A DNA stretch of 64,000 bases from Promicromonospora sukumoe (GTDB lineage: Bacteria; Actinomycetota; Actinomycetes; Actinomycetales; Cellulomonadaceae), in contig NZ_JACGWV010000002.1 of the NCBI RefSeq assembly GCF_014137995.1, positions 62,001 through 126,000 on the forward strand. Direction: 5' to 3'. The stretch's first letter is position 1, and every line of letters starts with the position of its first letter. Below the pieces are notes generated by a model. It saw nothing but the letters and a program-made list of their open reading frames with translations, was not told the origin of the DNA and made no database searches. Positions 10,357 through 36,352 of the stretch are shown here, piece after piece. The position numbers and the translations under genes are program-made.

Positions 10357-10487
10357 ACCCGGACGGGCGCAGACCGCGCCACGCCGGACGTAGCAGCGCG
10401 ATCGGGCCACGTCGAGCTGAGCGCGGCACCGCGCCGGGCCGACGCCGGTGACGGGGCTGGTGTCGGCCGCGGCGGCTCGTCCGCGTG

Positions 10488-10567
10488 ATCGGCAAGACGT
10501 CAGGTGATCGGCAGTACGTCAGGTGATCGGTAGTTCGAACTGCCGATCACCTGACGTACTGCCGATC
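10488..10567. repeat. family-B palindrome, copy 2, with extra half-unit
   Basis: Perfect 25-bp arms at 10506-10530 and 10543-10567 (GATCGGCAGTACGTCAGGTG then ATCGG). An extra unpaired half-unit (GATCGGCAAGACGTCAGGT) abuts it at 10488, so the half-arm is a unit that can be repeated in tandem. Confidence 0.75.
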
Positions 10568-10650
10568 ATCCGGGCGGGTGTAGCTCGCAGCGAGGCGGGC
10601 GCAGATCGCTCCCGGCCGGACGCAGCAGCGCGACCGGGCGGGAGCGGGGC

Positions 10651-11630: not shown

Positions 11631-11685
11631 GCGGGGACCCTGACACAGGAGCTCCCGCGCACCCAACGCAATAAGCCGATGGCGG

Positions 11686-11751
11686 GTGGTCGGCAGAAGG
11701 TCAGGTGGTCGGCACCTCGGACTGCCGATCACCTGACGTTCTACCGACCAC
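11686..11751. repeat. family-B palindrome, copy 3, overlapping a gene end
   Basis: 29-nt arms (GTGGTCGGCAGAAGGTCAGG...) with three mismatches. The distal arm includes the TAG stop codon of the downstream minus-strand gene (11741-11743), so its last codons come from the palindrome. It lies between two co-directional genes. Confidence 0.7.
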
Positions 11752-12754: not shown

Positions 12755-12931
12755 GCCTCGACGGTGCAGCACGGTCCCGTAACGCGGCGGCCGCACTGCC
12801 CCTGCCTGTGCACCAACCTCCGGAACGAGCCGCTGTGGTCGCGCTCCCGGCAGCCCACCCCCTCACCGAGGGTCTCTCCACACCGCCAACAATCTGCCCG
12901 ATGCCGCACTGCGAACCGCGACAGCAGAGCT

Positions 12932-13014
12932 GTGGTCGGCAAGACGTCGGGCGGTCGGCAGAATGTCAGGTGGTCGGCAGCTCGGAATGCCGATGATCTG
13001 ACATTCTGCCGACC
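12932..13014. repeat. family-B palindrome, copy 4, with extra half-unit
   Basis: 27-nt arms at 12953-12979 and 12988-13014 (GGTCGGCAGAATGTCAGGTG...) with few mismatches. A preceding extra half-unit (GTGGTCGGCAAGACGTCGGG) starts at 12932, as in copy 2. It lies between two minus-strand genes in a 290-bp gap (12755-13044). Confidence 0.7.
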
Positions 13015-13044
13015 ACTCGGAACCAGCCGCCGCGCCAGCAGCGG

Positions 13045-14049: not shown

Positions 14050-14056
14050 GTACTGA

Positions 14057-14074
14057 GGTTAGGCATACCTAACT
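14057..14074. promoter_or_regulatory. DtxR/IdeR iron box upstream of siderophore-interacting protein
   Basis: GTTAGGCATACCTAAC (14058-14073) has exact 6-bp arms GTTAGG/CCTAAC, the half-site of the IdeR/DtxR consensus (TTAGGTTAGGCTAACCTAA). It overlaps the last codons of the upstream MFS gene and lies just before the ATG of the SIP gene, which implies an internal iron-regulated promoter and a short or absent leader. Confidence 0.85.
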
Positions 14075-15487
14075 GGATTTGACCAGGTTTGCGTCGGGAT
14101 CTACTCCACGCACGTTCCGGATGCCGACCAGGGACACCAGCCCGCCGAGGATCAGCAGGCCCGCCGTGACGAGGAACGCCCGGTGCAGCGAGGCGACGTC
14201 GAGCACGCCGCCCGTGATGATCCCCGCGAACGCGACGGTCACGAGGCCCGCCACCCGCGCGACGGCGTTGTTCACCGCGGAGCCGATGCCGGCGTCGTGC
14301 GTGGGGACGGCGCCGAGGATGGCGGCGGTGAGCGGCGCCACCGTGATCGAGAGTCCGAGCCCGAACACGAGCTGCCCCGGGAAGACCTGCGTGAGGTAGT
14401 TGGCGGTCTCGTCGATCGAGAGCATCAGGAGGAAGCCGACGCCCGCCACGATCGGGCCCACGGTCATGAACAGCCGCGGCCCGTACCGGCCGGCGAGCGT
14501 GCCGAACCAGGCCGACAGCCCGATCATCGCCAGCGTCGTCGGCAGCTGGGCCACACCCGACCAGGTGGCGGAGTACCCGGCGACCTGCTGCAGGAACAGG
14601 GTGAGCACGAAGCCGCCGAGGGACAGCGCGCCGTAGATCGCCGTCGTCGCCAGGTTGCCCCAGGCGAAGTTGCGGGCCTTGAACAGGCCGAGCGGCAGCA
14701 TCGGGTCGGCCGCCCGCCGCTGGTAGAGCACGAACGCCACGAGCATCACCGCACCCCCGATGACCGACGTCAGGATGAGCGCCGACGTCCAGCCGAGCCG
14801 CTCCCCCTCGATGAGCCCGAACACGACCCCCGCGAGGCCGAACGCCGCCAGCACCGCCCCGGGGATGTCGATGCGCCGCCCGGGCTCGCCCTCCGCGGCG
14901 GGGACGCCGCGCAGCAGCCAGAGCGTCACGGCGATGACGGGCACGTTGATCCAGAACACCCAGCGCCACGACGCGAAGTCGACCAGCATGCCGCCCACGA
15001 ACGGGCCGAAGATCATGGCGCCCGTGGTCAGCGCGGTCCACCGGCCGATCGCGCGGGACTGCGCCTCGCCGCTGAACGTCGCGATGATCAGCGCGAGGGA
15101 GCTCGGCACCAGCAGGGCGCCGCCCACCCCCTGCAGGGCGCGCGCGAGGACGAGGAACGGCCCGGTCGGCGCGAGCGCGCACAGCACGGAGGCCACCCCG
15201 AAGCCGACCAGCCCGATCGCCAGCACGCGCCGTCGGCCGTAGACGTCGGAGACCGAGCCGGCCACCAGCATCAGCGCACCGAGGGTGATGAGGTACGCGT
15301 CCACGACCCACTGCTGCAGGGACAGCGCCTCCATGCCGGGCCCCGACAGCTCGTCGGCGATCGAGGGCAGGGCGACGCTCACCACCGTGCCGTCGAGGAA
15401 CGACACGAAGGAACCGAGGACGGCGACGACGAGGACTCGTCTCTGGAGCGTGGTCACGGGCCTCACGCTATGCCCGCTCACCGACAA
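14069..15487 (-). CDS. MFS transporter, DHA2 (EmrB/QacA) family
   Basis: 472 residues, about 14 membrane spans. The first span ends FLDGTVVSVALPSIADEL, the classic DHA2 motif; SDVYGRRRVLAIG is loop 2-3 motif A. A GTG ten codons downstream (MTTLQRRV...) may be the true start. It ends inside the iron box that precedes the siderophore-interacting protein gene on the same strand, so it might export a siderophore, but multidrug export is equally compatible. Confidence 0.87.
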   Translation of the reverse strand: MSVSGHSVRPVTTLQRRVLVVAVLGSFVSFLDGTVVSVALPSIADELSGPGMEALSLQQWVVDAYLITLGALMLVAGSVSDVYGRRRVLAIGLVGFGVASVLCALAPTGPFLVLARALQGVGGALLVPSSLALIIATFSGEAQSRAIGRWTALTTGAMIFGPFVGGMLVDFASWRWVFWINVPVIAVTLWLLRGVPAAEGEPGRRIDIPGAVLAAFGLAGVVFGLIEGERLGWTSALILTSVIGGAVMLVAFVLYQRRAADPMLPLGLFKARNFAWGNLATTAIYGALSLGGFVLTLFLQQVAGYSATWSGVAQLPTTLAMIGLSAWFGTLAGRYGPRLFMTVGPIVAGVGFLLMLSIDETANYLTQVFPGQLVFGLGLSITVAPLTAAILGAVPTHDAGIGSAVNNAVARVAGLVTVAFAGIITGGVLDVASLHRAFLVTAGLLILGGLVSLVGIRNVRGVDPDANLVKSS

Positions 15488-23362: not shown

Positions 23363-24649
23363 TCAGCCACCCAGCGTGCCCTGCGGCAGCTCGCGGAGCC
23401 GCGCCAGCGGCGAGACCAGGATGCTCCACGTGGCGAGGCAGTGGACCGCGGCCATGAGCAGGATGGTCTCGCGGACCCCGAGCACCCCGCCCAGCCAGCC
23501 CGCGGCGACCCCGGCCACCGGCATCGTGCCGAAGTTGACCACCTGCATCACCGTCATCACGCGCCCCCGCAGCCCGGCCGGCACGTAGCGCAGGCGCCAC
23601 GCGTTGCGGATCACGTTGCCCGAGACGACGCACAGGCCGACCAGGAACCCGCCGGCCCCGCTGATCGCCGCGCCCCACCCCGGCAGTCCCGCGCCCACGA
23701 GCAGCGCCGTCGGCCCGGAGAGCACGAGCAGCACGGTGGAGGCCCGCCCGCTGCCGAGCCGCGCGCTCAGGAACGGCGCCACGACCGCGCCGACGACGCC
23801 GCCGGCACCCGCCAGCGCGAGCACCGCGCCGACCCCGGCCTCCGTGAGCCCGAGGTCGCGCACCAGGAACAGGACCAGGAGCGCCCCGTACCCGGTGAGC
23901 CCGAAGTTCGACGCGCCGCCCATCCCCACGAACCACGGGAGGTAGCGGTCGCGGCGGACCAGCTCCACGCCCTCCCGGATGCGCGCCGTGAGTCCGTCCG
24001 CCGGGCCGACCGGGCCGACCGGGCCGTCCTCGGGCGCGGCGGCGCGGGCCGGCCGGATGCGCCACAGGCACACCGCCGACCAGAGGAAGGTCAGCGCGTC
24101 GAGCGCGAGCCCGAGCGCCGCCGTCAGCCACTGCGCCAGCAGGCCGCCGAGCCCGGGGCCGGCGACGTTCGCCGCGGACTCGGTGCCAAAGAGGCGCGCG
24201 TTCGCCGCCTCGAGCTGGCCGGCGGGCACCACCTCGGGCAGGAACACCTGGTACGCGGTGCGGAAGAACACCGTGCAGACGCCGCCCACCATCGCGACCA
24301 CCGCGATCTGCACCAGGGTGAGGACGCCGAGCGCGAACGCCACGGGCACGCTCGCGAGCGAGACCGCGGCGGCCAGGTTCGCGACGATCATCACCGGCCG
24401 GGCCGGGAGCCGGTCGACCCAGGCCCCCACCGGCAGCCCGATGAGCAGCCAGGGCAGCCAGGCCGCCGCGGTGATCAGGCCCATCCAGGCGGGCCCGGCG
24501 TCGAGCTGCGTCACCGCGAGCAGCGGCAGCAGGGCCGACGTCGTCGCGTTGCCCACGACGCTCACGCCCTCCCCCAGCCACAGGAGGCCGAAGGCCCGGT
24601 TGCGTGCGAGCGGCACTACGACTTCGGAGGGCGCGGTCGACGTCGTCAT
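23363..24649 (-). CDS. MFS transporter, DHA3/EntS-like
   Basis: 428 residues from ATG 24649. About 12 spans; FGLLWLGEGVSVVGNATTSALLPLLAV at the N-terminus, FFRTAYQVFLPEVVPAGQLEAANARLFGTESAANVAGPGLGGLL in the middle and LRYVPAGLRGRVMTVMQVVNFGTMPVAG are typical of the macrolide-efflux/EntS branch. Probably an exporter. The ArsR-type regulator precedes it on the same strand. The acyltransferase operon lies upstream of both, also on this strand, which makes it a candidate exporter for that product. Confidence 0.87.
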   Translation of the reverse strand: MTTSTAPSEVVVPLARNRAFGLLWLGEGVSVVGNATTSALLPLLAVTQLDAGPAWMGLITAAAWLPWLLIGLPVGAWVDRLPARPVMIVANLAAAVSLASVPVAFALGVLTLVQIAVVAMVGGVCTVFFRTAYQVFLPEVVPAGQLEAANARLFGTESAANVAGPGLGGLLAQWLTAALGLALDALTFLWSAVCLWRIRPARAAAPEDGPVGPVGPADGLTARIREGVELVRRDRYLPWFVGMGGASNFGLTGYGALLVLFLVRDLGLTEAGVGAVLALAGAGGVVGAVVAPFLSARLGSGRASTVLLVLSGPTALLVGAGLPGWGAAISGAGGFLVGLCVVSGNVIRNAWRLRYVPAGLRGRVMTVMQVVNFGTMPVAGVAAGWLGGVLGVRETILLMAAVHCLATWSILVSPLARLRELPQGTLGG

Positions 24650-24666
24650 GCCGAGCAGGCTATATC

Positions 24667-24694
24667 TACAACAGTTCTTGTACAACAGTCTTTG
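24667..24694. promoter_or_regulatory. AT-rich direct repeats, likely operator/promoter of the MFS gene
   Basis: Two adjacent 14-nt repeats, TACAACAGTTCTTG and TACAACAGTCTTTG, differ at two positions, and TTGTACAA at 24678-24685 is a palindrome across the joint. The stretch is far less GC-rich than its surroundings and lies 18 nt upstream of the MFS start, between it and the ArsR-type regulator gene. Confidence 0.6.
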
Positions 24695-24732
24695 CAGAAA
24701 CTCCGCGGGCGCGGCCTACGGAGCGAGCAGGA

Positions 24733-25308
24733 CTACGGCCGGGACGGGAACGCCCGCGCGAACAGGAAGACGTGCTCAGCCCTCGGGTCGTCCGCCGCCG
24801 CTCGCCCCCGCTCCTTCCAGCGCCCCACCAGCTCGTTGACCTCGTCGGTCAGCTCCTGCAGCTCGCCGGGCGTCAGGCGCAGCCAGCTGTCGGTGGAGAG
24901 CTCGGCCCGGCTCCAGTCGTCGTCCTGCTCGGGGCGCTCCAGCCAGGTGCGGGCGCGCTCGACCTGACGCGCCAGCATGAACTCCTCGGCGGCCACGGCC
25001 TGCCGCTGGCTCTCGGCGTCGGGCGGCAAGGTGGAGCGGCCCCAGGTGATGGAGCGCGCCGCCCGGCGCCACCAGCGTTCGCGCCGGTCACGGGCCAGTT
25101 CCGGCGCCTCCTCGACCAGCCCGGCGGAGGCCAGCACCCGCATGTGGTGGCTGATGCTCCCGACGGCCAGCCCCGTGCGCTCCGCCAGCACCGACGCCGT
25201 CGCGGGGCCGTCGGCCGTCAGCGAGTCGAGCAGGCGGGAGCGGGCCGGGTTGGCCAGGGCCGTGACCGCCTTGGCCTCGGTGAGCGTGCGGACGTCGTCG
25301 GTAGCCAT
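24733..25308 (-). CDS. ArsR-type winged-helix regulator
   Basis: 191 residues from ATG 25308. N-terminal winged helix (about 8-75): LTEAKAVTALANPARSRLLDSLTADGPATASVLAERTGLAVGSISHHMRVLASAGLVEE, as in ArsR/HTH_20 proteins, without the metal-binding cysteines. The C-terminal half is a charged helical region (WGRSTLPPDAES..., TPGELQELTDEVNELV) seen in regulators paired with MFS pumps. Probably controls the following MFS gene through the repeats at 24667-24694. Confidence 0.85.
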   Translation of the reverse strand: MATDDVRTLTEAKAVTALANPARSRLLDSLTADGPATASVLAERTGLAVGSISHHMRVLASAGLVEEAPELARDRRERWWRRAARSITWGRSTLPPDAESQRQAVAAEEFMLARQVERARTWLERPEQDDDWSRAELSTDSWLRLTPGELQELTDEVNELVGRWKERGRAAADDPRAEHVFLFARAFPSRP

Positions 25309-25383
25309 GCAGGCAGAGTAGGACGGCGCCACCGGCGTCGTCGCCCCCGACGCCCGTCCCGGCGCCCCGGACGCGGGGTGGGC

Positions 25384-26931
25384 TCAGCCCGCCAGACCCG
25401 TCAGGCGCTCCGACCAGCGGTCCAGCACGGCGTCGACCGTCGTGACGGCCTCCGGGGTGCGGGGCATGCGGGCGCGGACGGCGATGCCGTCGTCCGTGCG
25501 GGACACCCAGACCTGCAGGTCGTCGGCGCGGGTCGCGGCCGACACGTGGTGCGCGCCCCGCCCGGCGGACGCCGCGTGCCCGGGCAGCCGCCGGTAGTCC
25601 AGGTACGACACCTGGAAGATGTCGGTGCGGGGGAACCGCAGCGGGCTCGGCAGCGTGCCGACGACCTGCTCCAGCGGCACCGCGGCCAGCTCCCGCGCGG
25701 CCCGGAGCGCCTTGGCGGTCGCGGCCAGCGCGGTGTCCGCGTCGTGGCGGGCGGTGTGCGCCGGCCTGGCCCAGGCCCGGGCCGGCGCGCCCGCGGGGCC
25801 GACGCCGGGGTCGACGCGCAGCGGCACCGTCGTGGTGTGCCAGCCCACGGACCGGCGGGCGGCGTCGTCCGCGCGGGTGTGCACCGGCAGCAGGGTGTGC
25901 AGCACGCCGGGCCCGCCCAGGTCCGCGACCGCCCCGGCGAGCGTGACCAGCACGGCCGCCGACGTCGACGCGCCGGCCGCACGGGCGCGCGCCGCGACGG
26001 CGTCCGCGGTCGCGGCGTCGGCCAGGGGGCGCACGACCGTGCGCTGCGGCGCGCGCTCGCCCTCGGGCACGCCGAGCGGCAGCGGGAACGTGGGCAGCGC
26101 CCAACCGCGTTCGCGCAGGAAGCCGTGCCAGGCCGCGAGGCGCGGGTCGTCCGGGGCGACGAACGCGGGCCCCGGCGCGTCGCCGGGTGCGGGACCGTGG
26201 GGGCCGGGGTCGGGCACCGGACCGTGGGGCCCGGGGTCGGACGCGTCGAGCAGGACGGGACCGACCTCGGGTTGGCCGAGGGCGGACGGGTCCGGCACGA
26301 TCGCGGTCGCCTCGGCGCCGTCCTGCCCCGCAGCTGTTCCGGCGGAACCGCGTCGCGCCGCGCCCCCGAGACGCGCCCCGGCCCGCTCCGCGTACCGGGC
26401 GGCGAGCTCGTCGACGACGACGGTGGTCGACCAGGCGTCCGTGTGCAGGTGGTCCATCCCCAGCACGACCGTCGACCGGTCCGGCCGGCTGATCGCCGCG
26501 GGCAGGAACGCCGGGTAGCCGAACGGCGCGCACCGCCGGACGAGCCGCTCCACCAGGTGCTCGCGGGTGTCGCCGACCGTGCGCGTGACCGGGCCGTCGT
26601 GGCGCCGCCAGCGCAGGCCGTCGGCGTCGTGCCGCACCAGCGCAACGTCCTCGGGCGCCGGACGGCGGACGGCCTCGACCCGCAGGCCGGGGTGGGCGGC
26701 CACGAGGTCGCGGAAGGCCGCCTCCAGCGCGCCGGGGGCGACCGGCCCGTCGACGTCGAACGCGGCGGTGATCCACACGCTCGGCTCACCGGCGGCGGCG
26801 CCGAGGAGGTGGTTGCGCTGGTTGTACGTCGGCACCGCCGGGACCGGGGCGGACCCCGCGGACGGGGTGACGTCCCAGGTCAGGATCTGGCCGGGCGCCG
26901 GCTCCCAGAGGTCAGCCGAGAGGACCCGCAC
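25384..26931 (-). CDS. stand-alone condensation/acyltransferase-like protein (HxxxD), third gene of operon
   Basis: 515 residues from GTG 26931, chosen because GGGAGG lies 6 nt upstream; it overlaps the previous gene by 20 nt. It has the build of CoA-dependent acyltransferase/condensation-domain proteins: FRDLVAAHPGLRVEAV (usual RHexLRt region, degenerate), LGMDHLHTDAWS (H161-xxx-D165) and a C-terminal IFQVSYLDYRRLPG block shared with its two operon partners. A Gly/Pro/His repeat (DPGPHGP twice) sits at about 235-255. No carrier or adenylation domain. It may form an ester or amide; substrates unknown. Confidence 0.72.
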   Translation of the reverse strand: MRVLSADLWEPAPGQILTWDVTPSAGSAPVPAVPTYNQRNHLLGAAAGEPSVWITAAFDVDGPVAPGALEAAFRDLVAAHPGLRVEAVRRPAPEDVALVRHDADGLRWRRHDGPVTRTVGDTREHLVERLVRRCAPFGYPAFLPAAISRPDRSTVVLGMDHLHTDAWSTTVVVDELAARYAERAGARLGGAARRGSAGTAAGQDGAEATAIVPDPSALGQPEVGPVLLDASDPGPHGPVPDPGPHGPAPGDAPGPAFVAPDDPRLAAWHGFLRERGWALPTFPLPLGVPEGERAPQRTVVRPLADAATADAVAARARAAGASTSAAVLVTLAGAVADLGGPGVLHTLLPVHTRADDAARRSVGWHTTTVPLRVDPGVGPAGAPARAWARPAHTARHDADTALAATAKALRAARELAAVPLEQVVGTLPSPLRFPRTDIFQVSYLDYRRLPGHAASAGRGAHHVSAATRADDLQVWVSRTDDGIAVRARMPRTPEAVTTVDAVLDRWSERLTGLAG

Positions 26932-28651
26932 CGGTCGCCTCCCGGCGCTCGTCCGGGGCGGCGGTCTCGCGGGCGGGTGCACCGGCGGGCGCACCGACGG
27001 ACGCTCCGGCCGGCTCAAGGTGCGGCGCGGCGTCCCCCGCGGCGGGCACTGCATCGGCCCCTGGGTCGGCCTCCGCGTCGCCAGGCGCCTCGGCCCCTGG
27101 CCCGGACTCTGCAGGTTCCGCTACGGCTGCCACTGCGACGGCCCCTGGCTCGGCCGCGACGTCGTCCGCTGCGGCCGTCTCGGCGACCGCCGACGCGAAC
27201 GTGGCCGTCAGCTCGGCGAGGTACCGGTCGACGGCGGCCTGCGCCGCGGGCGTGTCCGGCGTCTGCGTGACGACGTACAGCCGCTCGTGGTCGCGGTTGA
27301 CCCAGAGGGAGGCGTTCGCGGTGCACCCCTCCCCCGTGAAGTGCAGGCCGTTGTCGTAGGCCGGGCGCCCCGCGCCGGGGAAGCGCCGCAGGTCGAGGTA
27401 GCTGATGAGCTGCGGGCTGCCGAGCGAGGCGGGGTCGAGCACGCCGCCCGCCAGCATGACGCCGAGCGCGGCGTGCACCGGCACCTCGGCGGCCTTCCTG
27501 GCCTGACGGAACGCGGCATCGGCGGCGGGCAGCACGGCGGCGAACGACGCCGGGCCGCCGCCTGAGACCGGGCCGGCGTCGTCGGACACCGGGAAGGTGA
27601 CCGGCGCGAAGTTGCACAGCCAGCCCTGCGTGGTCTCGAAGCCCGGCCCGCGCGTGCCGACGACGGTGACGCCGAACCAGTCGGCAGCCCCGGTCAGCCG
27701 GGTGTCGGTGAGCGCGATCCCGGCGAACACCGCGCCGGTGAACCGGGCGCCGCGGGCGGCGGCCAGCGCGTCGAGCCGCGCGAGGCCGGCTCCGTCGAGC
27801 AGGGTCGCGGACCGGATCTTCACGGGCGCCGTCTCGCCGGGCGGCAGGCCGAGGTCCAGGACGAACTGCGGCAGCCGGCCGCCGTGGGCGGTCACGGCGT
27901 CGGCCCAGGCGCGGATCTGGGGCGCGTCGGGCGGGGTCTCGGCAGCGAGCGCGTGCTCGGCGCGGGCGTGGTCCAGGAACGAGCCGGTGGTGGGCGGTCT
28001 CGACAGGCTCGACCCGCGGGGATCGCCGGAGGTGTCCGGCTCGGCCAGCTCCGCGGCGTACAGCTCCTCGATCTCGCTGAGCACCATGAGCTGGGAGCCG
28101 CCGTCGGTGAAGGCGTGGTCGCAGCCCCAGAACAGGCCGAACCCGTCCTCGGTGACCACGGCGCCGAGCGCGAACGGGGCCCAGGAGCCGGGGCGGCAGG
28201 CGGCGTCGAAGGTCGCGGTGAGGTGCTCGGTGACCCACTCGTCCCAGGACCGTCCGGGCCCCGGCGAGAGGGCGGGGACCGGCACGGGCGTGAAGCCGAC
28301 GGCGTCCGCGGGGACCAGGTGCCGCACCGGGTCGCCGCCGTCGGCGCAGGCGTCGACGTCGAACCAGGTGCGCAGGCCCTCGTGCCGGCGGACGAACCGG
28401 GTCAGGGCGCGGGCCAGGGCGTCGCCGTCGAACGGGCCGTCGAGGTAGGTCGCGGTGCCGGTCCAGGCGCGGTGCGTACCGCCGGAGGCGCGGCGCGCCG
28501 CGAAGGCCCGCAGGTGGTCGCCCTGCAGGAACGACGGCGGGCCCGGGTCCACGGGGGCGTCCTGCGCGGCGGCGAGCGCCTCCGCCGTCGGCCGGAGGTG
28601 GACCACCCGCCCGGGAGCGGAGGTCCAGGTGCCCAGGGCGCCGAGGATCAT
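26912..28651 (-). CDS. stand-alone condensation/acyltransferase-like protein (HxxxD), second gene of operon
   Basis: 579 residues, ATG in a 4-nt overlap with the upstream gene. RFVRRHEGLRTWF (86-98) and FWGCDHAFTDGGSQ (H179-xxx-D183-G184) are condensation-domain core motifs in the canonical form; SYLDLRRFPGAG near residue 420 is shared with its neighbours. The last ~90 residues are an Ala/Glu/Pro/Gly-rich tail of low complexity. A repeat of the VEPVET type is translated in a surface-like loop (SRGSSLSRP). Likely an active acyl- or aminoacyl-transfer enzyme; partner unknown. Confidence 0.75.
   Translation of the reverse strand: MILGALGTWTSAPGRVVHLRPTAEALAAAQDAPVDPGPPSFLQGDHLRAFAARRASGGTHRAWTGTATYLDGPFDGDALARALTRFVRRHEGLRTWFDVDACADGGDPVRHLVPADAVGFTPVPVPALSPGPGRSWDEWVTEHLTATFDAACRPGSWAPFALGAVVTEDGFGLFWGCDHAFTDGGSQLMVLSEIEELYAAELAEPDTSGDPRGSSLSRPPTTGSFLDHARAEHALAAETPPDAPQIRAWADAVTAHGGRLPQFVLDLGLPPGETAPVKIRSATLLDGAGLARLDALAAARGARFTGAVFAGIALTDTRLTGAADWFGVTVVGTRGPGFETTQGWLCNFAPVTFPVSDDAGPVSGGGPASFAAVLPAADAAFRQARKAAEVPVHAALGVMLAGGVLDPASLGSPQLISYLDLRRFPGAGRPAYDNGLHFTGEGCTANASLWVNRDHERLYVVTQTPDTPAAQAAVDRYLAELTATFASAVAETAAADDVAAEPGAVAVAAVAEPAESGPGAEAPGDAEADPGADAVPAAGDAAPHLEPAGASVGAPAGAPARETAAPDERREATGAGPLG
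27996..28019. repeat. VEPVET-type repeat in the second condensation-like gene
   Basis: GGTCTCGACAGGCTCGACC followed by CGCGG, in the opposite orientation to the ligD copy; translated as part of GSSLSRP. Frame kept. Confidence 0.7.
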
Positions 28652-30105
28652 GCGACCGCCTCGCTCAGGCCCGCGGTGCCGAACGCGCGGAAGGAGGCGC
28701 GCAGCTCCTCGACCAGGGCGTCCATCGCGGCGTGCGCCTCGGGGGTGTCGGGGTGGCGGGCGGAGACGTTGAGGCCGTCGTGGGTGCGCAGGAACCAGAG
28801 GTAGAGCTCGTCGGTGCCGTACGCGGGGCTGCGCAGGGTGCGGGCGTCCCAGGTGCTCCAGCGCTCGGCGCCGGGCACGAACCGCGTGTCCACGTACGAG
28901 ACGGCGAGGTGCGGGCCGTCGGTGATGCCGCCGAGCTCCGCGATGCGGGCGAACGAGTAGCGCACCAGGGGTTTCCCGGCGGCGATCGCGGCGTGCACGC
29001 GTTCGACGGCGGCGGTCAGCGCGGTGCCGTCGACCACGTGGCCGGAGTCGCGGCCCCCGTCGAGGGCGCGCAGCACCGGGTCCACGCCGTCCAGGTCCAG
29101 GTCCACGGGGCACAGGCCCACGTACCAGCCGACGGCGGCCGCGTGCTGCGGCGCGTACCGGGTGTGCATCGGCAGGACGAACCGGAGCCGGTCGATGCCG
29201 TGCACCCGCCGCGCGGCGTGCGCGAACAGGGCCAGCACCCCGGACTGGGCGGAGGCGCCGCGGGCCCGGCTGCGGGCGCTGAGGTCGTCGGTCTGGTCCG
29301 TCGTGGCGAGCCACTCCGAGCGCGAGGCCTGCCGCAGGGCGGCCTCGGCGTCGTCGGCGGCGGGGTGCGTGATGCCGTCGCTGCCGTAGCGGGGGAACGT
29401 GGCGCCCGCCCCGAGGAAGTCGAGCCAGCGGTGCACAGGCTCGCCGTCGGAGGCGAGCGTCATGGCGAGCTTGCGGTCGTCGGCGGAGAAGTCGACGTGG
29501 GAGCCGACCTCCAGCGCGCGCAGCTCGGCGTCGGGCACGCCGCGACGGGCGGCGTCGTACAGGGAGACGATCTCCTCGAACCAGAGGAGCTGGGAGTAGG
29601 CGTCCATCACGGAGTGGTCGGCGCCGAACGCGAGCACGAAGCTCTCGCCGCCGCCGGAACCTACGGCCGGCTCCGGCACGACCGTGGCGAGGACGCAGTG
29701 CGGCCAGGCGGTCGGCGAGACGTCGGCGAGCAGGCTGGGCAGCAGCGCCGTGACCTGGTCGCCGGTCAGGTCGCCGACGACGAGGTCACGGATGGCGACA
29801 GCCTCGGCCGGGGCGGTGACGCGGCGCCAGCCCGCGCCGGCGTCGCGGGTGACGGTGGTGCGCAGCACCTCGTGGCGGCTCACCCAGGCGTGGATGGCCC
29901 GGCGCAGCGGCTCCGGCTCGTAGGGCCCGGGCACGCGGAGCACCGACCCGATCCAGGAGCCCGGCTCGGAGTCGCGCAGGTGCGCCTCGTGCCCCGGGGA
30001 CAGGTCGCGGGGGTCCTGGTGCCAGCGTCCGGCGTCGGCGCGCGGCGTCCAGGACGTGACGACCCCGGCGGGCAGGTCGTAGTCCGAAAGCTCGGTGTAT
30101 TCCAT
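28648..30105 (-). CDS. stand-alone condensation/acyltransferase-like protein (HxxxD), first gene of operon
   Basis: 485 residues from ATG 30105. WVSRHEVLRTTV (74-85), LAFGADHSVMDAYSQ (H164-xxx-D168) and RFVLPMHTRYAP with VSYVDTRFVPGAE follow the order of condensation domains. The Gly after the catalytic Asp is replaced by Ala. First of three overlapping genes reading leftwards; the 80-nt leader carries GGTATAAAGG on its strand. The three proteins are clearly related to one another but diverged, which suggests different substrates acting in sequence. Confidence 0.75.
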   Translation of the reverse strand: MEYTELSDYDLPAGVVTSWTPRADAGRWHQDPRDLSPGHEAHLRDSEPGSWIGSVLRVPGPYEPEPLRRAIHAWVSRHEVLRTTVTRDAGAGWRRVTAPAEAVAIRDLVVGDLTGDQVTALLPSLLADVSPTAWPHCVLATVVPEPAVGSGGGESFVLAFGADHSVMDAYSQLLWFEEIVSLYDAARRGVPDAELRALEVGSHVDFSADDRKLAMTLASDGEPVHRWLDFLGAGATFPRYGSDGITHPAADDAEAALRQASRSEWLATTDQTDDLSARSRARGASAQSGVLALFAHAARRVHGIDRLRFVLPMHTRYAPQHAAAVGWYVGLCPVDLDLDGVDPVLRALDGGRDSGHVVDGTALTAAVERVHAAIAAGKPLVRYSFARIAELGGITDGPHLAVSYVDTRFVPGAERWSTWDARTLRSPAYGTDELYLWFLRTHDGLNVSARHPDTPEAHAAMDALVEELRASFRAFGTAGLSEAVA

Positions 30106-30294
30106 GCGTGCGCGCCCCTCGATCGGTCTGTGGGCACGGCCAGCACGACGTCGGACGAGTTCCGCGGTCCCCTTGCGGCGACCTTTATACCGGATTCGCC
30201 GGGTGAAAGTTAGTCCCTCCGTAATGCCCGGTATGGTCGACATCGTGAACCCCGCGGTCCCCGCCGGGGACCGGAACCGACCGGAGAGACGAGC
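30106..30294. promoter_or_regulatory. divergent promoter region of the acyltransferase locus
   Basis: This 189-bp gap separates the leftward three-gene operon from the rightward acyltransferase gene. It is less GC-rich in its middle. Minus-strand GGTATAAAGG (30182-30191) is a -10-like element whose exact 10-mer recurs upstream of the minus-strand gene at 36352. ATACCGG (30187-30193) and CCGGTAT (30228-30234) form an inverted pair that could be an operator for both directions. Confidence 0.6.
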
Positions 30295-31890
30295 GTGACG
30301 GAACCGCCACCCGCACTGCGCCTGCAGTTCGCCGACGACATGTTCCTGCGCCGCCACGAGGGAGCCACGAGCCCGGCCGTGAACCAGGTGCTGTGGCGCC
30401 TCGACGGTCCGTTCGACGCCGCCCGGCTGCGTGACCTGGCCGAACACCTCGCCGCCGGGGCGCTGCACCGGCGCGTGGTGCGGTCCCGCGTGCCCGGTGC
30501 GCGGCACCGCTGGGCGCCCGCCGGCACGCTGCCGGTGCTGGACCTGCAGACGGCTGCCGTGCCCGAGGGCGGCGTCGGCGCCTGGGCGCAGGCCCAGGCC
30601 GACGTGCCGCTCGACCCCGCGCGGGGCCTGTCCTGGCGGATCTCCGCGGCGGACGTCGCGGGGCGTCCGGGCGGACGTCCCGGGGCGGGCGGGCCCGTGG
30701 CCGGCTCGATCGTCTCGCTCACCTGCGCGCACGCCGTGGCCGACGGCGCCGCGCTGATCGACGCCGTCGTCCGCGCCGCGACCCACGCCGAGCCGCTCGC
30801 CGTGCCGGTCCCCGAGCGCGGCAGCCGGGCGCTGCTCGCCGACGCCGCCGACGCCGCCGCGCAGGCCGCCGCCGTCGCGCGCTGGGCCCGGGACAAGGCG
30901 CGGGCGACGGCGCAGGCCGCGGCGCGCGAGGTCGCGCCGCAGGGGGCGCGGGCACAGGTCTCGGGAGGCACGGTGCACGAACCGGTGCCGCCACCGCCGC
31001 CCGAGATGGGTCTGCCTGCTGGGCCGGGCGGTCCCGGTGGTCCCGGCGGTCCTGCCGGACCGGGCGCGGGGGCACCGCCCGCCACGCGGCTCATGCCCGC
31101 GGTGCCGGGCCGGCCCGGCACCGCGCCTGGTGGCGCGCCCGTCGCGTCTGGCGCCCCCGCAGAGCCGGGCGCCGTCGTCGCCCCGGCCGCGCCCGGTCCC
31201 GCGGACGACCCCGCATGGCGTGTCCCCGTGCTGCACGTCGAGCTCCCGGCCGACCAGGTGACGCAGGCCGCCGCCGCGCACGGCGGCACGCCCAACACCT
31301 GGTTCGTCGCGTTCCTCGCCCGCCTGGTGCACGCGACCGGCCGGTTCCCTGGCGAGCCCGTGCCCGTCGCGCTGCCGGTCTCGACCCGCGGCGCCGACGA
31401 CCCCCGGGCCAACTCGACCAAGATCGCCCGCGTCACCATCCCGGCCGACGTGCTCGCCCACCGCGACCTGAGCTGGGTCCGGGCGGCGGCCAAGGAGGCG
31501 TACACCGCCGTCGGGCAGACGGAGCCCGGCGTGGCCCCGGTGCCGCTCGAGCTGGTGCAGATGCTGCCCGACAACCTGGTCAGCCGCCTGCCGCAACCGC
31601 CCGTCGCCGCAGCGCTGGCCTCCAACCTGGGCCGCCCGCCCGAGGGCTACACCCAGGCCGCCGGCGGACCCGTGCGCGCGGTCGCGACGCTGTCGCACTA
31701 CCAGGGCGCGTCGTCGGCCGAGCTGCGCGCCGCGGGCGGCGGGCTGGTCGCCTTCTGCACCACCGCCGGCCGCACGACGACGCTCAGCGTCGCCGCCCTC
31801 GACCCCGACCGCGTGCCCGACGCCGCGGCCCTGCGCCGCCTCGTGCTCGCCGAGGCCGAGGCCTGGAAGCTCCCGGCGGCCCCGTGGTGA
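30295..31890 (+). CDS. HxxxD acyltransferase-like protein, paralogue A
   Basis: 531 residues, GTG start 10 nt after GGAGAGA. LRLQFADDMFLRRHEG opens the protein; SLTCAHAVADGAAL gives the motif H146-xxx-D150-G. A Gly/Pro/Ala-rich insert (about 235-300) splits the two halves. The second half has NTWFVAFLARLVHA, VALPVSTRGADDPRANST and LASNLGRPPEG, which recall WS/DGAT and PapA-type acyltransferases more than NRPS condensation domains. It shares the opening, the LDPxRGxxW block and the SNLG block with the gene at 33401. It probably moves an acyl group from CoA to a hydroxyl; unproven. Confidence 0.72.
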   Translation: MTEPPPALRLQFADDMFLRRHEGATSPAVNQVLWRLDGPFDAARLRDLAEHLAAGALHRRVVRSRVPGARHRWAPAGTLPVLDLQTAAVPEGGVGAWAQAQADVPLDPARGLSWRISAADVAGRPGGRPGAGGPVAGSIVSLTCAHAVADGAALIDAVVRAATHAEPLAVPVPERGSRALLADAADAAAQAAAVARWARDKARATAQAAAREVAPQGARAQVSGGTVHEPVPPPPPEMGLPAGPGGPGGPGGPAGPGAGAPPATRLMPAVPGRPGTAPGGAPVASGAPAEPGAVVAPAAPGPADDPAWRVPVLHVELPADQVTQAAAAHGGTPNTWFVAFLARLVHATGRFPGEPVPVALPVSTRGADDPRANSTKIARVTIPADVLAHRDLSWVRAAAKEAYTAVGQTEPGVAPVPLELVQMLPDNLVSRLPQPPVAAALASNLGRPPEGYTQAAGGPVRAVATLSHYQGASSAELRAAGGGLVAFCTTAGRTTTLSVAALDPDRVPDAAALRRLVLAEAEAWKLPAAPW

Positions 31891-31931
31891 GAGGGCGAGG
31901 CTCAGGCTCAGGCTGTGTTCTCGGGCGCCCG

Positions 31932-32002
31932 AGCCTGCGGCTCCGCTCCGGGCGCGTGCCTCGTCCCTCGGCCCCCACCCTGCGCTGCGCCTTCGGCTCA
32001 GG
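31932..32002. repeat. 3'-end dispersed element E, copy 1
   Basis: About 70 bp beginning GCCTGCGGCTCCGCTCCGGG and ending CTGCGCTGCGCCTTCGGCTC, repeated with ~85% identity at 62118-62184. It abuts the TGA stop of the minus-strand glycosyltransferase gene (31998-32000), as copy 2 abuts the hutH stop. The ends are partly complementary. Confidence 0.7.
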
Positions 32003-33347
32003 CTCCGGCGGAGGCGCTGACCACGGCGTCCGCCGCCGCCGCGACCGCATGGTCCGGCGGCACCAGGCGGCCGCCGAGCGCGGCGGCGCGGGCCGCGGTG
32101 GCGTCGTCGAGCACCTCGGCCAGCGCCCCGGCGAGCACGCCGGGCTCGGTGAGCGTGCTCGCCCGGCGGGCCACGCCCACGCCCGCACCGCGCAGCAGGT
32201 CGCCCCACATGGGCTGGTCCGCGGAGTACCAGCCGACGACGGCGGGCAGGCCCGCGCGCAGCGCCGCCGCCGTCGTCCCGGCACCGCCGTGGTGCACGGC
32301 CGCGCGGCAGCGGGGCAGCACCGCCGCGTGGTCGACGGCGCCGACCACGCGCACCCGTTTCCCGTCCGGGCCGGGAGCACCGGTCGCGCCATCGGCACGA
32401 CGAGCGCCGTCGGCCCCCGAGAAGTCGTTCCAGCCCGCGCTGACCAGCGCGCGCACCCCCAGGTCGGCGCACGCGGCGTCGACGGCGGCGAGCAGGGCGG
32501 CCGGATCGGCCACGGGCATGGAGCCGAAGCCGACGTAGACGGGCGGCTCGCCGTCGTCGAGCCACGCGTCGAGGCTTGCCGCGCCGCCGTCACCGCCGCC
32601 GTCGACCCCGGAACCGGAGCCGGTCTCCCCGAGGCGCGCCCGGGCGTCGTCGTCCAGCGCGAGGAATCCCGTGAGCGGACGGCGCGGGCCCCACTCGCCG
32701 ACCAGGCCGGGCGCGAGCGCCGGGTCGTAGGCCTGGACCTCGACCGCCCCGGCGTCGCGCAGGCGGGTGGGCAGGTGCACGCGCGTGCCGCCGAGGCCGA
32801 GCGCGGCGCGCTGGTCGTTCTCGGCGCGGCGGGTCAGGCCCCAGCGCACCCGCTCCCCCAGCGCCCAGACGGTGCGGGTCGCGCGCGGGCCGCGCACACC
32901 GCTGACGGGCGAGACCACGCCGTTGGCCCGGACCGGGCAGTAGTGCAGCGCCGCCATGGCGAGGCCGCGCCGCTCGGCGACCGCGGCGGCCACCTCCTGG
33001 CCGAGCAGGCCGGTGACCACGGTGTCGGCCCCGCCGACGTCGTCGAGCAGCGCGAGCAGCCCGGTACGCAGCTCGTCCCAGCCCGCCGATGCCACGGCGC
33101 GCAGCGCCCGCACCCGGCGCACCGGGTGCGCGGACCGCATGTCGCGCCGCACCAGGTCGGAGCCCAGGAGGGCCGCCGAGTCGATGCCGAGCGGCACCGG
33201 GTCCAGGCCCAGCCGGCCGGCCAGCGGCACGAGGTTCGGCGCCACGCCGGTGACCACCTCGTGGCCGCGTCGGCGCAGCTCCAGCGCGACCGCCAGGGCC
33301 GGCTGGACATCTCCTCGACTGCCCACCAGGGCCATGACATGACGCAC
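31998..33347 (-). CDS. GT1-family glycosyltransferase (Gtf/MGT-like)
   Basis: 449 residues, GTG start. MALVGSRGDVQPALAVALELRRRGHEV (5-31) is the acceptor-side signature of the antibiotic/glycopeptidolipid Gtf and sterol glucosyltransferase group; VYVGFGSMP (270-278) and VHHGGAGTTAAALRAGLP...ADQPMWG (351-382) are the donor-binding PSPG-like region with the Q-P pair (Q378). It transfers a sugar from a nucleotide donor to a hydrophobic aglycone in the cytoplasm. It lies, on the opposite strand, between the two paralogous acyltransferase genes, so the product may be an acylated glycoside or glycolipid (inference). Confidence 0.88.
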   Translation of the reverse strand: MRHVMALVGSRGDVQPALAVALELRRRGHEVVTGVAPNLVPLAGRLGLDPVPLGIDSAALLGSDLVRRDMRSAHPVRRVRALRAVASAGWDELRTGLLALLDDVGGADTVVTGLLGQEVAAAVAERRGLAMAALHYCPVRANGVVSPVSGVRGPRATRTVWALGERVRWGLTRRAENDQRAALGLGGTRVHLPTRLRDAGAVEVQAYDPALAPGLVGEWGPRRPLTGFLALDDDARARLGETGSGSGVDGGGDGGAASLDAWLDDGEPPVYVGFGSMPVADPAALLAAVDAACADLGVRALVSAGWNDFSGADGARRADGATGAPGPDGKRVRVVGAVDHAAVLPRCRAAVHHGGAGTTAAALRAGLPAVVGWYSADQPMWGDLLRGAGVGVARRASTLTEPGVLAGALAEVLDDATAARAAALGGRLVPPDHAVAAAADAVVSASAGA

Positions 33348-33400
33348 GCGCGCACCCTATCCGCCCGCCGACCACCCGCCCGCCCGGCATCGGAGACGTC

Positions 33401-34897
33401 TTGACCAGCCCAGCGACCAGTCCTGTGACCAGCACCGTGACCAGTTCAGCGCCACGCGCCGCCCCGAGCACGACGACCGCTCCGCCGCCCGGTCCCGCGG
33501 CGAGCAACCGCCTCACCTACGACGACGACCTGTTCCTGCGCACGCGCCGGGTGCTCGGCGTGGCCGTGGTCAACCAGACGGTCTGGCGGCTGCCGGCGCC
33601 GCTGGACCTCGACGCGCTGCGCGCCCTGCACCGCGGTCTGGCCGAGGGTCCGCTCCAGCGCGTGGTGCGGCCCGGGCGCCTGCCGGGGGCCCGCGCGCGC
33701 TGGTCGGCGTCGACCACGCTGCCCGACCTGCTCATCGGGTCCGCGCCGGTGCCCGAGAACTACGTGCTCGCCTGGGCGGACGAGCAGTCCCAGGTCAGCC
33801 TGGACCCGGAGCGCGGTCCCACCTGGGCCCTGGCCGCGGCGCGCACGACGAGCGGCGGGACGGTGCTCAGCCTCGTGACCTCGCACGTCGTCGCCGACGG
33901 CGGGATGCACGTGGGCGCCCTGGAGGCGGCCGTCGCCAGCGCCGCCGCACGCGGGGCCTTCGTGGGCGGGTACGCCGAGGGGGCGCCGTCGTCGGACAGC
34001 CGCCGCCTGCCCAAGGAGGGCGAACGCATCCGCACGGGCCTCGTGGCCGACCTGCGCGACGCGACCGAGCAGGCGCGCGCCGCCGTCGGGGGCCTGCGCC
34101 GGATGGCGCGGCAGGGGCCGGTGCCGCCGATCATGGCGCAGCAGTCCGCGGACCGGCCGCGCCCTGCCCCGCGCCCGGACGACGCCGAGCCCGCGCACCC
34201 GCCGATCGTCGTCGTCGACACGGACGCCTCGACCTGGCACCGCGCGGCCCACGCCGCGGGCGGGACGGCGAACAGCCTGCTCATCGCGGTGTGCACGGAG
34301 ATCCTGCTCGCCGCGGGCGCCGCGACCGCGGGCATGCCGGTGCGCGTGTCGCTGCCCGTGAGCCTGCGGCAGCCCGGCGACCTGCGGTCCAACGCGACGT
34401 CAGGGGTGTCCATCGCCGTGGACACGACCGTGACCCCCGCGCCCGAGCGGGCCGGCGTGATCGCCGACATGGGCCAGATCCGGGCGCGGGCCAAGGCCGA
34501 GTTCGCGGCCCTGACGTCGGGCACCCGGGTGGACACCCTGGGCCCGCTGAAGCCGCTCATGCAGATGGTGCCCGACGCCGTCGCGAAGAAGGCGGCGCGC
34601 GACGGCACCGCGCCGCTGTGCCTGGCCTCCAACCTGGGCCGGCTACCAACGGCGTTCGCGGCGCCGCTCGGGACGCCCGCGTCCAGCGTGCTCATGCGCG
34701 GCGTGACGCAGGGGCTCACCCGCGGCCGGATGCGGCAGATGCGCGGCGGCCTGGACTCCTGGTGGTCGGAGCACAACGGCATCGCGACCCTGGCGGTGCT
34801 CGGGCTGGACGAGGATCGGCTCGGCACCGCGGCCCAGGTGCGCGCGGCGGTCGAGGCGGTCTACGCGCGGCACCGGCTGCCGGTCCGCTTCTGGTGA
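33401..34897 (+). CDS. HxxxD acyltransferase-like protein, paralogue B
   Basis: 498 residues; a TTG at 33401 gives a Thr/Ser/Pro-rich lead of ~35 residues, and a later start is possible. RLTYDDDLFLRTRRV, VVNQTVWRL, LDPERGPTW, SLVTSHVVADGGMH (H162-xxx-D166-G), PVRVSLPVSLRQPGDLRSNAT and LCLASNLGRLP match paralogue A at 30295 block by block. It is an acyltransferase of the WS/DGAT-PapA-like superfamily by pattern. It starts 53 bp from the divergent glycosyltransferase start, so the pair shares a promoter region. Ends 45 bp before a family-A palindrome. Confidence 0.72.
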   Translation: MTSPATSPVTSTVTSSAPRAAPSTTTAPPPGPAASNRLTYDDDLFLRTRRVLGVAVVNQTVWRLPAPLDLDALRALHRGLAEGPLQRVVRPGRLPGARARWSASTTLPDLLIGSAPVPENYVLAWADEQSQVSLDPERGPTWALAAARTTSGGTVLSLVTSHVVADGGMHVGALEAAVASAAARGAFVGGYAEGAPSSDSRRLPKEGERIRTGLVADLRDATEQARAAVGGLRRMARQGPVPPIMAQQSADRPRPAPRPDDAEPAHPPIVVVDTDASTWHRAAHAAGGTANSLLIAVCTEILLAAGAATAGMPVRVSLPVSLRQPGDLRSNATSGVSIAVDTTVTPAPERAGVIADMGQIRARAKAEFAALTSGTRVDTLGPLKPLMQMVPDAVAKKAARDGTAPLCLASNLGRLPTAFAAPLGTPASSVLMRGVTQGLTRGRMRQMRGGLDSWWSEHNGIATLAVLGLDEDRLGTAAQVRAAVEAVYARHRLPVRFW

Positions 34898-34941
34898 GCG
34901 GCAACCCCTGACTGTCGGTACCCCGACGGGCGTTCCCCTTT

Positions 34942-34995
34942 GAGACCTAAGTTTCTTCGCTTTCGGTGGCCCCAAAGCGAAGAAACTTAGGTCTC
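34942..34995. repeat. family-A palindrome, copy 1
   Basis: 22-bp perfect arms (GAGACCTAAGTTTCTTCGCT then TT) around a 10-nt loop, between the convergent acyltransferase and ketopantoate-reductase-like genes. Position fits a bidirectional terminator. Four more copies lie at 42.2, 42.5, 55.5 and 58.7 kb. Confidence 0.8.
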
Positions 34996-35036
34996 GAAGG
35001 AGAAGACGACAGCAGCCGGACCTCGGAAGACGGTCG

Positions 35037-35927
35037 TCAGGCGACCGACGCCGCCAGACGGTCCACCGTCGCCCGGAGCACCGGCAGGTCGTACCCGTGC
35101 CGCCCGCCCGCGCGCAGGATCGCGCCGCCGATGGCGTCCAGCTCGCCGGGCCGTCCGGCGGACAGGTCGGCCTCCAGGGAGCCGACCGTCAGCGGCGGCA
35201 TCCCGGCGAGCTGTCCGCGCAGGTCGGCGCCCGTGGAGGGCACGCCCTCGGCCGTGGCGACGGCGGCGATCTCGTCCAGCAGGCCGGCGGTGAGCGCCGG
35301 GTCGCGCTCCAGCGCGTCGGCGATCCCGGTCTTCCACGTCGAGGTCAGCAGCGACAGGGCCGCGAGGAACCGCAGCTTCTTCCAGAGCACCTCGGCCTCG
35401 GTGCCGCCGGTCTGGAGCGCGGCGCCCGTGTCGCGCAGGGCGGCGGTCAGGCCGAGGTCGGCGGCGGCGTCAGGCACGACGATACTGAGCAGGTCGAACG
35501 AGTGCGTGACCGTCGCCGGGCCGGGGCCGCCCACCGGGGTGCGGCGCGTCTGGCCGGCGATCGTCGCGCCCAGCACGGTCGCGCCGGGCGCCGCCGCGCG
35601 CAGCGGCACCATGTGCTCGACCCCGTTGAGGAAGGCGAGCACCTCGGCCGGATCGGCGTCGCGCAGCAGGTCGGCGGCCGCGGGGACGCCGTCCGCCTTG
35701 ACCGCGACGACCACCTGGGCGCCGCGCGGCACGGTCGTGGACGCAGCCAGCGGCGCGTGCCACGAGCCGAACATGTCGGAGACGACGTCGAGGCCGTGCT
35801 CGGCGATGTGCGCCGCGGTCGCCTCCCGGGCGACCACGGTCACGTCGTGCCCCGCGCGCTGCAGCAGCGCGGCCAGCAGTCCGCCGATCGCACCGGGGCC
35901 GACGACGGCGACGGGCCGGTCGCTCAC
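35037..35927 (-). CDS. ketopantoate reductase-like (ApbA/PanE family) oxidoreductase
   Basis: 296 residues, GTG start in a 4-nt overlap with the upstream membrane protein gene. N-terminal Rossmann VAVVGPGAIGGLLAALLQRAGHDVTVVAR (about 6-35), AVKADGVPAA, and the C-terminal catalytic-lysine helix KKLRFLAALSLLTSTW with a late PPLTVGSLEADLSAGRPGELD block. PanE makes pantoate for coenzyme A, but many paralogues have other substrates, and nothing here shows it is the biosynthetic enzyme. It may belong to the same regulon as the acyltransferases through the shared promoter 10-mer. Confidence 0.82.
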   Translation of the reverse strand: MSDRPVAVVGPGAIGGLLAALLQRAGHDVTVVAREATAAHIAEHGLDVVSDMFGSWHAPLAASTTVPRGAQVVVAVKADGVPAAADLLRDADPAEVLAFLNGVEHMVPLRAAAPGATVLGATIAGQTRRTPVGGPGPATVTHSFDLLSIVVPDAAADLGLTAALRDTGAALQTGGTEAEVLWKKLRFLAALSLLTSTWKTGIADALERDPALTAGLLDEIAAVATAEGVPSTGADLRGQLAGMPPLTVGSLEADLSAGRPGELDAIGGAILRAGGRHGYDLPVLRATVDRLAASVA

Positions 35928-36352
35928 GCGGCCATCCGCACGGGCGGGTGCCCCTTGGTCTCGGGCAGCGCGGTGGGCCGCGCCGACCGGCGCCGCCGGA
36001 TGGTCACCAGCACCCCGGCCGACGCCGCCGCGAAGGCCAGCACGCCGTAGCCGGTGGACCACGCGTCCAGGTCGACCGTCAGCGTGAACGCGACGATCGC
36101 CCCGACCGGCGCCAGCATCCCGACCGGCACGGACCAGCGCGCCAGGCGCAGGGCCCGCGCGGTCCGGGCCACGGACCAGCCGACGACGGCCCACGTCAGC
36201 AGCGTCAGCGTCGCACCGCCGACGGACGCGAAGACCTCGCCGCCGTTCTGGGCGTTCGAGGGCGGCCCGAAGTAGAAGAGCTCGGTGGTCGCCACAAGCA
36301 CCAGGAACCCCACGATCGCGGCCGTTCCGGTCACGAGAGAGCGTGTCAACAC
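35924..36352 (-). CDS. small four-span membrane protein, unknown function
   Basis: 142 residues with four likely membrane segments (about 8-24, 44-62, 73-92 and 98-117) and a basic C-terminal tail (TIRRRRSARP...). I do not recognise a family. It overlaps the PanE-like gene by 4 nt and precedes it, so the two form one operon. The promoter 10-mer GGTATAAAGG lies ~46 nt upstream. Confidence 0.7.
   Translation of the reverse strand: MLTRSLVTGTAAIVGFLVLVATTELFYFGPPSNAQNGGEVFASVGGATLTLLTWAVVGWSVARTARALRLARWSVPVGMLAPVGAIVAFTLTVDLDAWSTGYGVLAFAAASAGVLVTIRRRRSARPTALPETKGHPPVRMAA

Follow-up and report, generated by a model that had tools for sequence, protein, structure and literature searches.

In mycobacteria, PapA-type acyltransferases act in the acyltrehalose pathways, with PapA2/PapA1 serving sulfolipid-1 (SL-1), PapA3 di- and polyacyltrehaloses (DAT/PAT) and PapA4 lipooligosaccharides (LOS). 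A papA4 mutant of Mycobacterium marinum is without LOS, according to the available part of the article (PMC5706390). In Rhodococcus sp. SD-74, the protein TlsA is involved in succinoyl trehalose lipid synthesis (Inaba 2013, cited in PMC8396431). The available part of the report on Rhodococcus sp. I2R (PMC8396431) describes succinoyl di- and trisaccharide esters, the sugar presumably being trehalose, grouped into di-, tri- and tetraesters by their primary acyl chains; the acyl groups are 3-hydroxy medium-chain acids, hexanoate and phenylacetate, some of them secondary on the 3-hydroxyl. Four papA genes on contig 9 of I2R are given there as candidates for the succinoyl trehalolipids based on annotation (PMC8396431). 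Here we describe a locus of six genes from Promicromonospora sukumoe, which probably makes an acylated sugar glycolipid of the acyltrehalose type from CoA-linked acyl groups, a product and an acceptor that we infer. The locus lies in a stretch of 64,000 nucleotides, called the window below (contig NZ_JACGWV010000002.1, positions 62,001 to 126,000; G000:C2:62001-126000), of a 6.5 Mb genome in 4 contigs.

The six genes occupy window positions 25384-34897, with A, B, C and GT on the minus strand and D and F on the plus strand:

25384..26931, minus strand: gene A, putative PapA-type HxxxD acyltransferase with motif HLHTD, 515 amino acids (aa), GTG start
26912..28651, minus strand: gene B, putative PapA2-like HxxxD acyltransferase with motif HAFTDG, 579 aa, low-complexity C-terminal tail
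28648..30105, minus strand: gene C, putative PapA-type HxxxD acyltransferase with motif HSVMD, 485 aa, heading the minus-strand operon; start MEYTEL kept in the alignment
30106..30294, no strand: divergent intergenic stretch between C and D, a promoter region as judged from gene layout, with no sigma-70 consensus
30295..31890, plus strand: gene D, HxxxDG protein with motif HAVADG, 531 aa, Pro/Gly/Ala-rich insert, of a family without a Pfam model
31998..33347, minus strand: gene GT, between D and F, predicted glycosyltransferase of family 1 (GT1) and GT-B type with HHGGAGT ... DQP, 449 aa
33401..34897, plus strand: gene F, paralogue of D with motif HVVADG, 498 aa, TTG start

The original prediction, made from the sequence alone, had drawn the locus out to 36352 as five HxxxD proteins with a glycosyltransferase. 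All six genes proved real, with conserved homologues, and all five HxxxD motifs are in place. The set itself stops at 34897; what follows at 35.0-36.4 kb is flanking sequence whose genes also accompany other Promicromonospora loci. The five proteins belong to two families, three being of PapA type (A, B, C) and two of an unnamed family (D, F). B overlaps C by 4 nt (ATGA) and the start of A overlaps the end of B by 20 nt; by layout, C-B-A is an operon on the minus strand. A promoter and terminator scan of the locus returned nothing. The TTG start of F is seemingly homologous to the GTG starts of F in the related loci L010 and L013. The closest database proteins come from P. sukumoe itself, with 97% (D) and 98% (C) identity.

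An HxxxD string arises by chance in 34-84% of shuffled proteins (A 73%, B 64%, C 84%, D 43%, F 34%), so that the motif alone is weak evidence and the case is carried by profiles and conserved catalytic residues. The Pfam Condensation model matches A with 35.2 bits and C with 37.4 bits, above its cut-off, and B with 30.5 bits against a cut-off of 30.6; none of the five HxxxD proteins attains the cut-off of an NCBIfam model. When searched as a single sequence, B matches PapA2 (PDB 6aef) over residues 5-488 of its 579 (E=4.7e-35), and A matches it less strongly, over residues 257-496 (E=5.4e-9). The single sequence of C finds an NRPS (nonribosomal peptide synthetase) condensation domain first (1.6e-6) and PapA2 second (2e-5); the profile of the C family, built from 24 C relatives, has PapA2 as its best match at 7.3e-40. 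The catalytic His and Asp are invariant in 32/32 rows of the A bin, 171/171 rows of the B bin, which takes in further paralogues, and 84/84 rows of the C bin. Judged by these comparisons, A, B and C are related to the trehalose acyltransferase PapA2, and their condensation-type HxxxD domains, invariant His/Asp and similarity to PapA proteins (weaker for A) mark them as predicted PapA-type enzymes. None of the five HxxxD proteins matches PF16911 (PapA_C) at E<=1, and membership of the PapA5 subfamily was ruled out on this ground. B carries its low-complexity tail at window 26912-27200; its matched stretch is 579 aa long, compared with 506-508 aa in L008, L011 and L014.

The matches to Pfam Condensation, and the preference of the single C sequence for an NRPS domain, would also suit detached NRPS condensation domains of a relic or partial lipopeptide pathway, which would take carrier-bound substrates supplied by other parts of the genome. 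An NRPS-type frame of 2546 aa does exist on contig C1, and the locus L091, the sole relative neighbourhood profiled for NRPS domains, holds an NRPS together with a D/F-type protein, a Sap-family gene and two glycosyltransferases, without a PapA protein. The frame on C1, however, is on another contig, the window has no carrier or adenylation match, and the C-family profile matches PapA2 best; we consider this explanation very unlikely. Within the 64-kb window span, PF00501, PF00109 and PF00550 have no match at E<=0.001, whereby the original prediction was right about adenylation, ketosynthase and carrier domains; thioesterases were not searched for. An NRPS module, needing adenylation (PF00501) and carrier (PF00550) domains beside condensation, was rejected likewise.

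D and F share 31% identity. D has no Pfam match at E<=1, F touches DUF6468 only, under its cut-off, and single-sequence searches of the PDB gave weak matches for D (best 0.3) and none for F. The D-family profile (40 sequences) reaches the condensation domains of Txo2 (3.1e-6) and Txo1 (3.7e-4) and, at 0.0017, the structure 8s6l, which we take to be PapA5. The catalytic His is conserved in 93/93 and the Asp in 92/93 rows of the D bin, and both in 41/41 rows of the F bin. Based on the conserved HxxxDG and the similarity of the D profile, from which the profile evidence comes rather than from one of F alone, D and F can be assigned to the HxxxD superfamily, with a putative condensation fold. PF02458 is touched by 1 of the 40 D-family members (0.0051). 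The WS/DGAT (wax ester synthase/diacylglycerol acyltransferase) model PF03007 matches none of the five proteins at E<=1 and none of the 40 D-family members at 0.01, which ruled out membership of that family. A long Pro/Gly/Ala-rich insert at about residues 225-305 separates the two halves of D.

Proteins of the D/F type also sit in loci with other glycolipid genes. In L086 one lies beside a PapA-type protein, a GT1, a polyketide synthase (PKS) and MmpL, and in L087 with a PapA-type protein and MmpL; L088 and L089 look alike, MmpL having been profiled in L087 only. L086 and L091 are from one genus, probably Mycobacterium. It is the presence of D/F-type proteins in L086, L091 and L087 that ties this family to glycolipid loci. 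Since L091 resembles a glycopeptidolipid (GPL) locus, D and F were also considered as GPL acetyltransferases of the Atf type. Atf proteins have ten predicted transmembrane domains, as given in the available part of their description (PMC10400925), whereas D has zero 19-residue windows above hydropathy 1.6 and F has one, and this candidate was ruled out.

GT scores 54.6 bits with EryCIII-like_C, over the cut-off, and has GT-B-type domains in Pfam. The combination of HHGGAGT and DQ is the donor-site motif of GT-B enzymes; HHGGAG is found in 85/86 rows of the family, the remaining row being gapped, and GT is accordingly a predicted Gtf-type GT1 enzyme. Its nearest solved structures are GtfB (4.3e-24), GtfA and sterol 3-beta-glucosyltransferases (about 1e-20). 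As these relatives of GtfB and sterol glucosyltransferase kind act on aglycones, GT might glycosylate a hydrophobic non-trehalose aglycone (sterol-, hopanoid-, carotenoid- or macrolide-like), with the HxxxD enzymes then acylating the sugar. GT was not found by tblastn, however, in any of the 8 loci tested, all of which have A, B, C and D/F (L011 of P. umidemergens, L015, L016, L017, L021, L023, L025, L055; stretches at the loci only), and was found in both controls (L013, L018). The acceptor thus seems available without GT, unless GT lies elsewhere in those genomes, and no conserved neighbour for aglycone synthesis was noticed in the layouts inspected, where most neighbours were not profiled. 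We judge an aglycone acceptor unlikely. The acyltransferases seem to work without GT in these 8 otherwise complete loci, which fits an optional sugar.

The original prediction had named gene neighbourhoods in relatives as a test that could overturn it; the genes do stay side by side, in almost unchanged order, across many distantly related actinobacteria. Scanning genomes once with the C profile gave 79 loci (from the best 80 of 101 confirmed stretches); rows under 300 aa were dropped, slots were judged by distance, and L007, L012, L034 and L037 are short contig ends. C is present in 79 of these loci, C and B in 77, C, B and A in order in 67, at least one D/F protein in 68, the GT family in 60 and all in 55. 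The order F-GT-D-C-B-A occurs in Promicromonospora, some Nocardioides, Saccharomonospora, Amycolatopsis, where exporter genes are inserted between F and GT, and Rhodococcus/Rhodococcoides. A second layout, in Williamsia, Gordonia and Nocardia, has one to two D/F-type genes, often with two GTs, upstream. The locus L067, labelled Kitasatospora arboriphila, is close in layout and scores to L056/L058 of Williamsia muralis and its assembly is perhaps contaminated or misnamed.

Slots and clades agree in a tree of 287 PapA-type proteins. The A slot falls into one clade for 67/67 proteins (support 0.966) and the B slot for 76/77 (support 0.992), the exception fitting L078 of Flexivirga, in which A and B are rearranged. 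All 79 C-slot proteins are in a clade of support 1.0, together with 23 of the 37 genes of a fourth slot, C'; within it, 78 C-slot rows separate from C' in a split without support. The D slot is a single clade of 40 that includes D of the window (support 0.993) and is separate from the clade of its F. Since slots match clades and catalytic residues are conserved, the six gene products seem to be separate, active enzymes that are inherited together.

The four papA genes of I2R are spaced nearly as C-B-A-C' in three loci. Their stop-to-stop distances of 1448/1407/2995 compare with 1448/1404/2964 in L029, 1448/1398/2964 in L031 and 1448/1421/3000 in L041, and the spacing in other Rhodococcus loci differs more; the products of I2R, in the available part of its report, are acylated di- and trisaccharides. 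The statement in the original prediction that no pathway with this content has been described was therefore too strong, as those papA genes had already been listed with nearly this spacing (PMC8396431). Promicromonospora differs from I2R in lacking the fourth PapA (C') and in having the set at another chromosomal site, the I2R genes being compared by spacing and not by sequence, and the available text of the I2R authors does not connect GT, D or F with the papA genes. TlsA, known here by description, is likewise an acyltransferase, whose closest I2R homologues are the four papA genes at about 30% similarity (PMC8396431), and it is a single gene, unlike the multi-gene set here.

The mycobacterial acyltrehalose pathways share PapA-type acyltransferases with the locus, B resembling PapA2 over most of its length. 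Unlike their loci, three co-operonic PapAs stand here together with D and F, and the window lacks matches to ketosynthase and AMP-binding models. No MMPL was found among ten genes scanned at 23.4-36.4 kb either, and a LOS-, SL-1- or PAT-type locus, which would have PKS, FadD and MmpL linked, was rejected on these grounds. L086 and L091, which are LOS- and GPL-like, share a D/F-type protein beside GT1, and L086 also a PapA-type protein; L086 is built around a PKS with MmpL and L091 around an NRPS with a Sap-family protein, unlike the six-gene set. Atf1/Atf2 of the GPL pathway acetylate sugars of a surface glycolipid from a locus with glycosyltransferases, in the available part of their description (PMC10400925), and are not of the same family as D and F, being set apart by predicted membrane segments and not by sequence comparison. 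Three unidentified glycolipids listed for P. noduliphila in the available part of its description (PMC13274763) fit the proposal, with no weight as proof. In the literature searched, largely outside subscription journals, no description of the six-gene set or of D/F was found, and a search linking PapA acyltransferases, trehalose and Nocardioides found no paper. PapA-type acyltransferases and GT1 enzymes are known, and the locus can be seen as a variation on glycolipid biosynthesis by PapA-type enzymes rather than as an established succinoyl trehalolipid system.

The product is most likely a soap-like surface glycolipid in which trehalose or another sugar carries several fatty-acid groups. From the I2R products and papA spacing we propose that the acceptor would be trehalose, as the homology to PapA2 also suggests, and that A, B and C would differ both in the acyl group that each transfers from acyl-CoA (medium-chain or 3-hydroxy) and in the hydroxyl that receives it. 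D and F, members of separate clades, may add further or secondary acyl groups, e.g. short-chain, succinyl or acyloxyacyl, and GT may add an optional third sugar, giving di- and trisaccharide forms. With no linked polyketide synthase, acyl groups would be drawn from ordinary CoA pools. In Promicromonospora, export might rely on a transporter encoded away from the locus; several relatives might use the ABC-2 exporter linked to the set. The order of steps, the acyl types and the acceptor are all putative. The genome itself has genes of the OtsA and TreY families.

Several observations weigh against an acyltrehalose product. The OtsA and TreY families are widespread and say little about the product. 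The single-sequence similarity of A and C to PapA2 is weak (5.4e-9 and 2e-5, the latter behind an NRPS condensation domain), and profile-profile comparison (hhalign) of D with C gives just 32% probability (E 4.9e-4), with the motifs aligned. The link to I2R is one of gene spacing and not of sequence; in the available part of the report, its authors assigned the genes by annotation only and call the sugar only "presumably" trehalose (PMC8396431). D/F proteins were not detected in 11 of the 79 loci, and in six loci (L043, L048, L051, L062, L080, L085) PapA-type genes stand without D/F or GT across long stretches. The genome G450 yields a C-like gene at 393 bits and no match for D. A polyacylated glycoside or glycolipid, as originally predicted, is still the best-supported reading, with stand-alone HxxxD enzymes whose genes are kept together; the export by a neighbouring protein of the major facilitator superfamily (MFS) that came with it has to be dropped.

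This MFS gene and one for an ArsR-type regulator lie past A at window 23363-25332, and, with the window included, 4 of 8 Promicromonospora loci have the pair. It follows A in L008, L011 and L014 (3 of the 7 other Promicromonospora loci reaching the next conserved gene) and is absent in L007, L009, L010 and L013 (4/7), where A is followed directly by that gene, read as mqo. Being variable among relatives, the pair is not needed by the set, and MFS was ruled out as a member. Its similarity to drug efflux models is weak and under their cut-offs, as is that of GT to the rifamycin-inactivating Rgt (64.9 bits, far below the 800-bit cut-off). The two likenesses could point to self-protection or detoxification, with GT and the acyltransferases inactivating antibiotics alongside the pump. 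The variable MFS gene argues against this, and five conserved acyltransferase-type proteins in fixed slots would be unexpected for a resistance set; we regard it as extremely improbable.

On the other side of the locus, at 35.0-36.4 kb, a profile scan found a PanE/ApbA-like reductase and a small membrane protein. In other Promicromonospora the locus is accompanied by the small protein, often the reductase, and two genes read as pntAB from sequence. Near the set in many Mycobacteriales loci, one flank encodes a carboxyltransferase (23 loci) and maf (28), and the opposite flank a rhodanese (32), sufE (23) and a biotin carboxylase (33), one member of each having been profiled; the carboxyltransferase, biotin carboxylase and rhodanese genes are presumably accD5, accA3 and sseA. 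ABC-2 exporter genes adjoin the set in L044 of Williamsia and L018 of Nocardioides (profiled) and, by sequence cluster, in Gordonia, Nocardia, Amycolatopsis and Flexivirga. L098 (Tsukamurella tyrosinosolvens NZ_LR134451.1, 563-15398) encodes three PapA5-like proteins (PF16911), a GT1 and a D/F-type protein between carboxylase-maf and sulfurtransferase-sufE-carboxylase, with a PapA-type protein after sufE. This site has the look of a glycolipid island with exchangeable content.

Class-wide searches, in which only the best few candidates per genome were scored, covered 394 genomes, 58 with a PapA-like match (C profile, E<=1e-40) and 37 with a D-like match (1e-10). The best C match reaches at least 380 bits, a cut chosen after the list was seen, in 8 genomes including the own genome, and 7 of these 8 have a D-like gene within 10 kb, G450 being the exception. 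Within the family, 12 of 200 genomes match C at 1e-60. Eleven are among the 13 listed genomes of the own genus, one of the 11 as a fragment, and one, G027, comes from the other 24 genera and has no D-like match. G006 and G097, nearly complete genomes of the own genus, have neither C (1e-60) nor D (1e-10), and the incomplete genome G128 of this genus has pieces only. In the C tree, 9 Promicromonospora rows group with Nocardioides, a Nocardioidaceae metagenome-assembled genome, Microbacterium and two metagenome rows at 0.972, with a sister support of 0.61. This gene-tree pattern and the occurrence within the family hint at possible horizontal transfer. L099, on the conjugative rhizobial plasmid pSfreNXT3b of Sinorhizobium fredii (6600-14338), has a condensation protein of PapA type, which scores 438 bits with the B profile, adjoining a sulfotransferase, with a glycosyltransferase, a GMC oxidoreductase and an aminotransferase; similar matches occur on plasmids of S. 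americanum, S. terangae and Cupriavidus taiwanensis. The layout of L099 recalls sulfoglycolipid synthesis.

PapA-type sets have been studied mostly in mycobacteria and are widespread outside them, and the locus described here connects the D/F family, which has no Pfam model, to sugar acylation. More speculatively, and with considerable doubt on our part, D/F may be a new stand-alone HxxxD family adding second-tier acyl groups to acyltrehaloses. The set of six would in that case be an acyltrehalose pathway that needs neither polyketides nor mycolates and was passed as one unit between actinobacterial orders; the Rhodococcus genes for succinoyl trehalolipids, and parts of the glycolipid loci of mycobacteria, would be its offshoots. 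The genetic basis of succinoyl trehalolipids is still poorly understood according to the I2R report (PMC8396431), and the six-gene module offers a candidate that can be tested in a host not belonging to the genera with mycolates.

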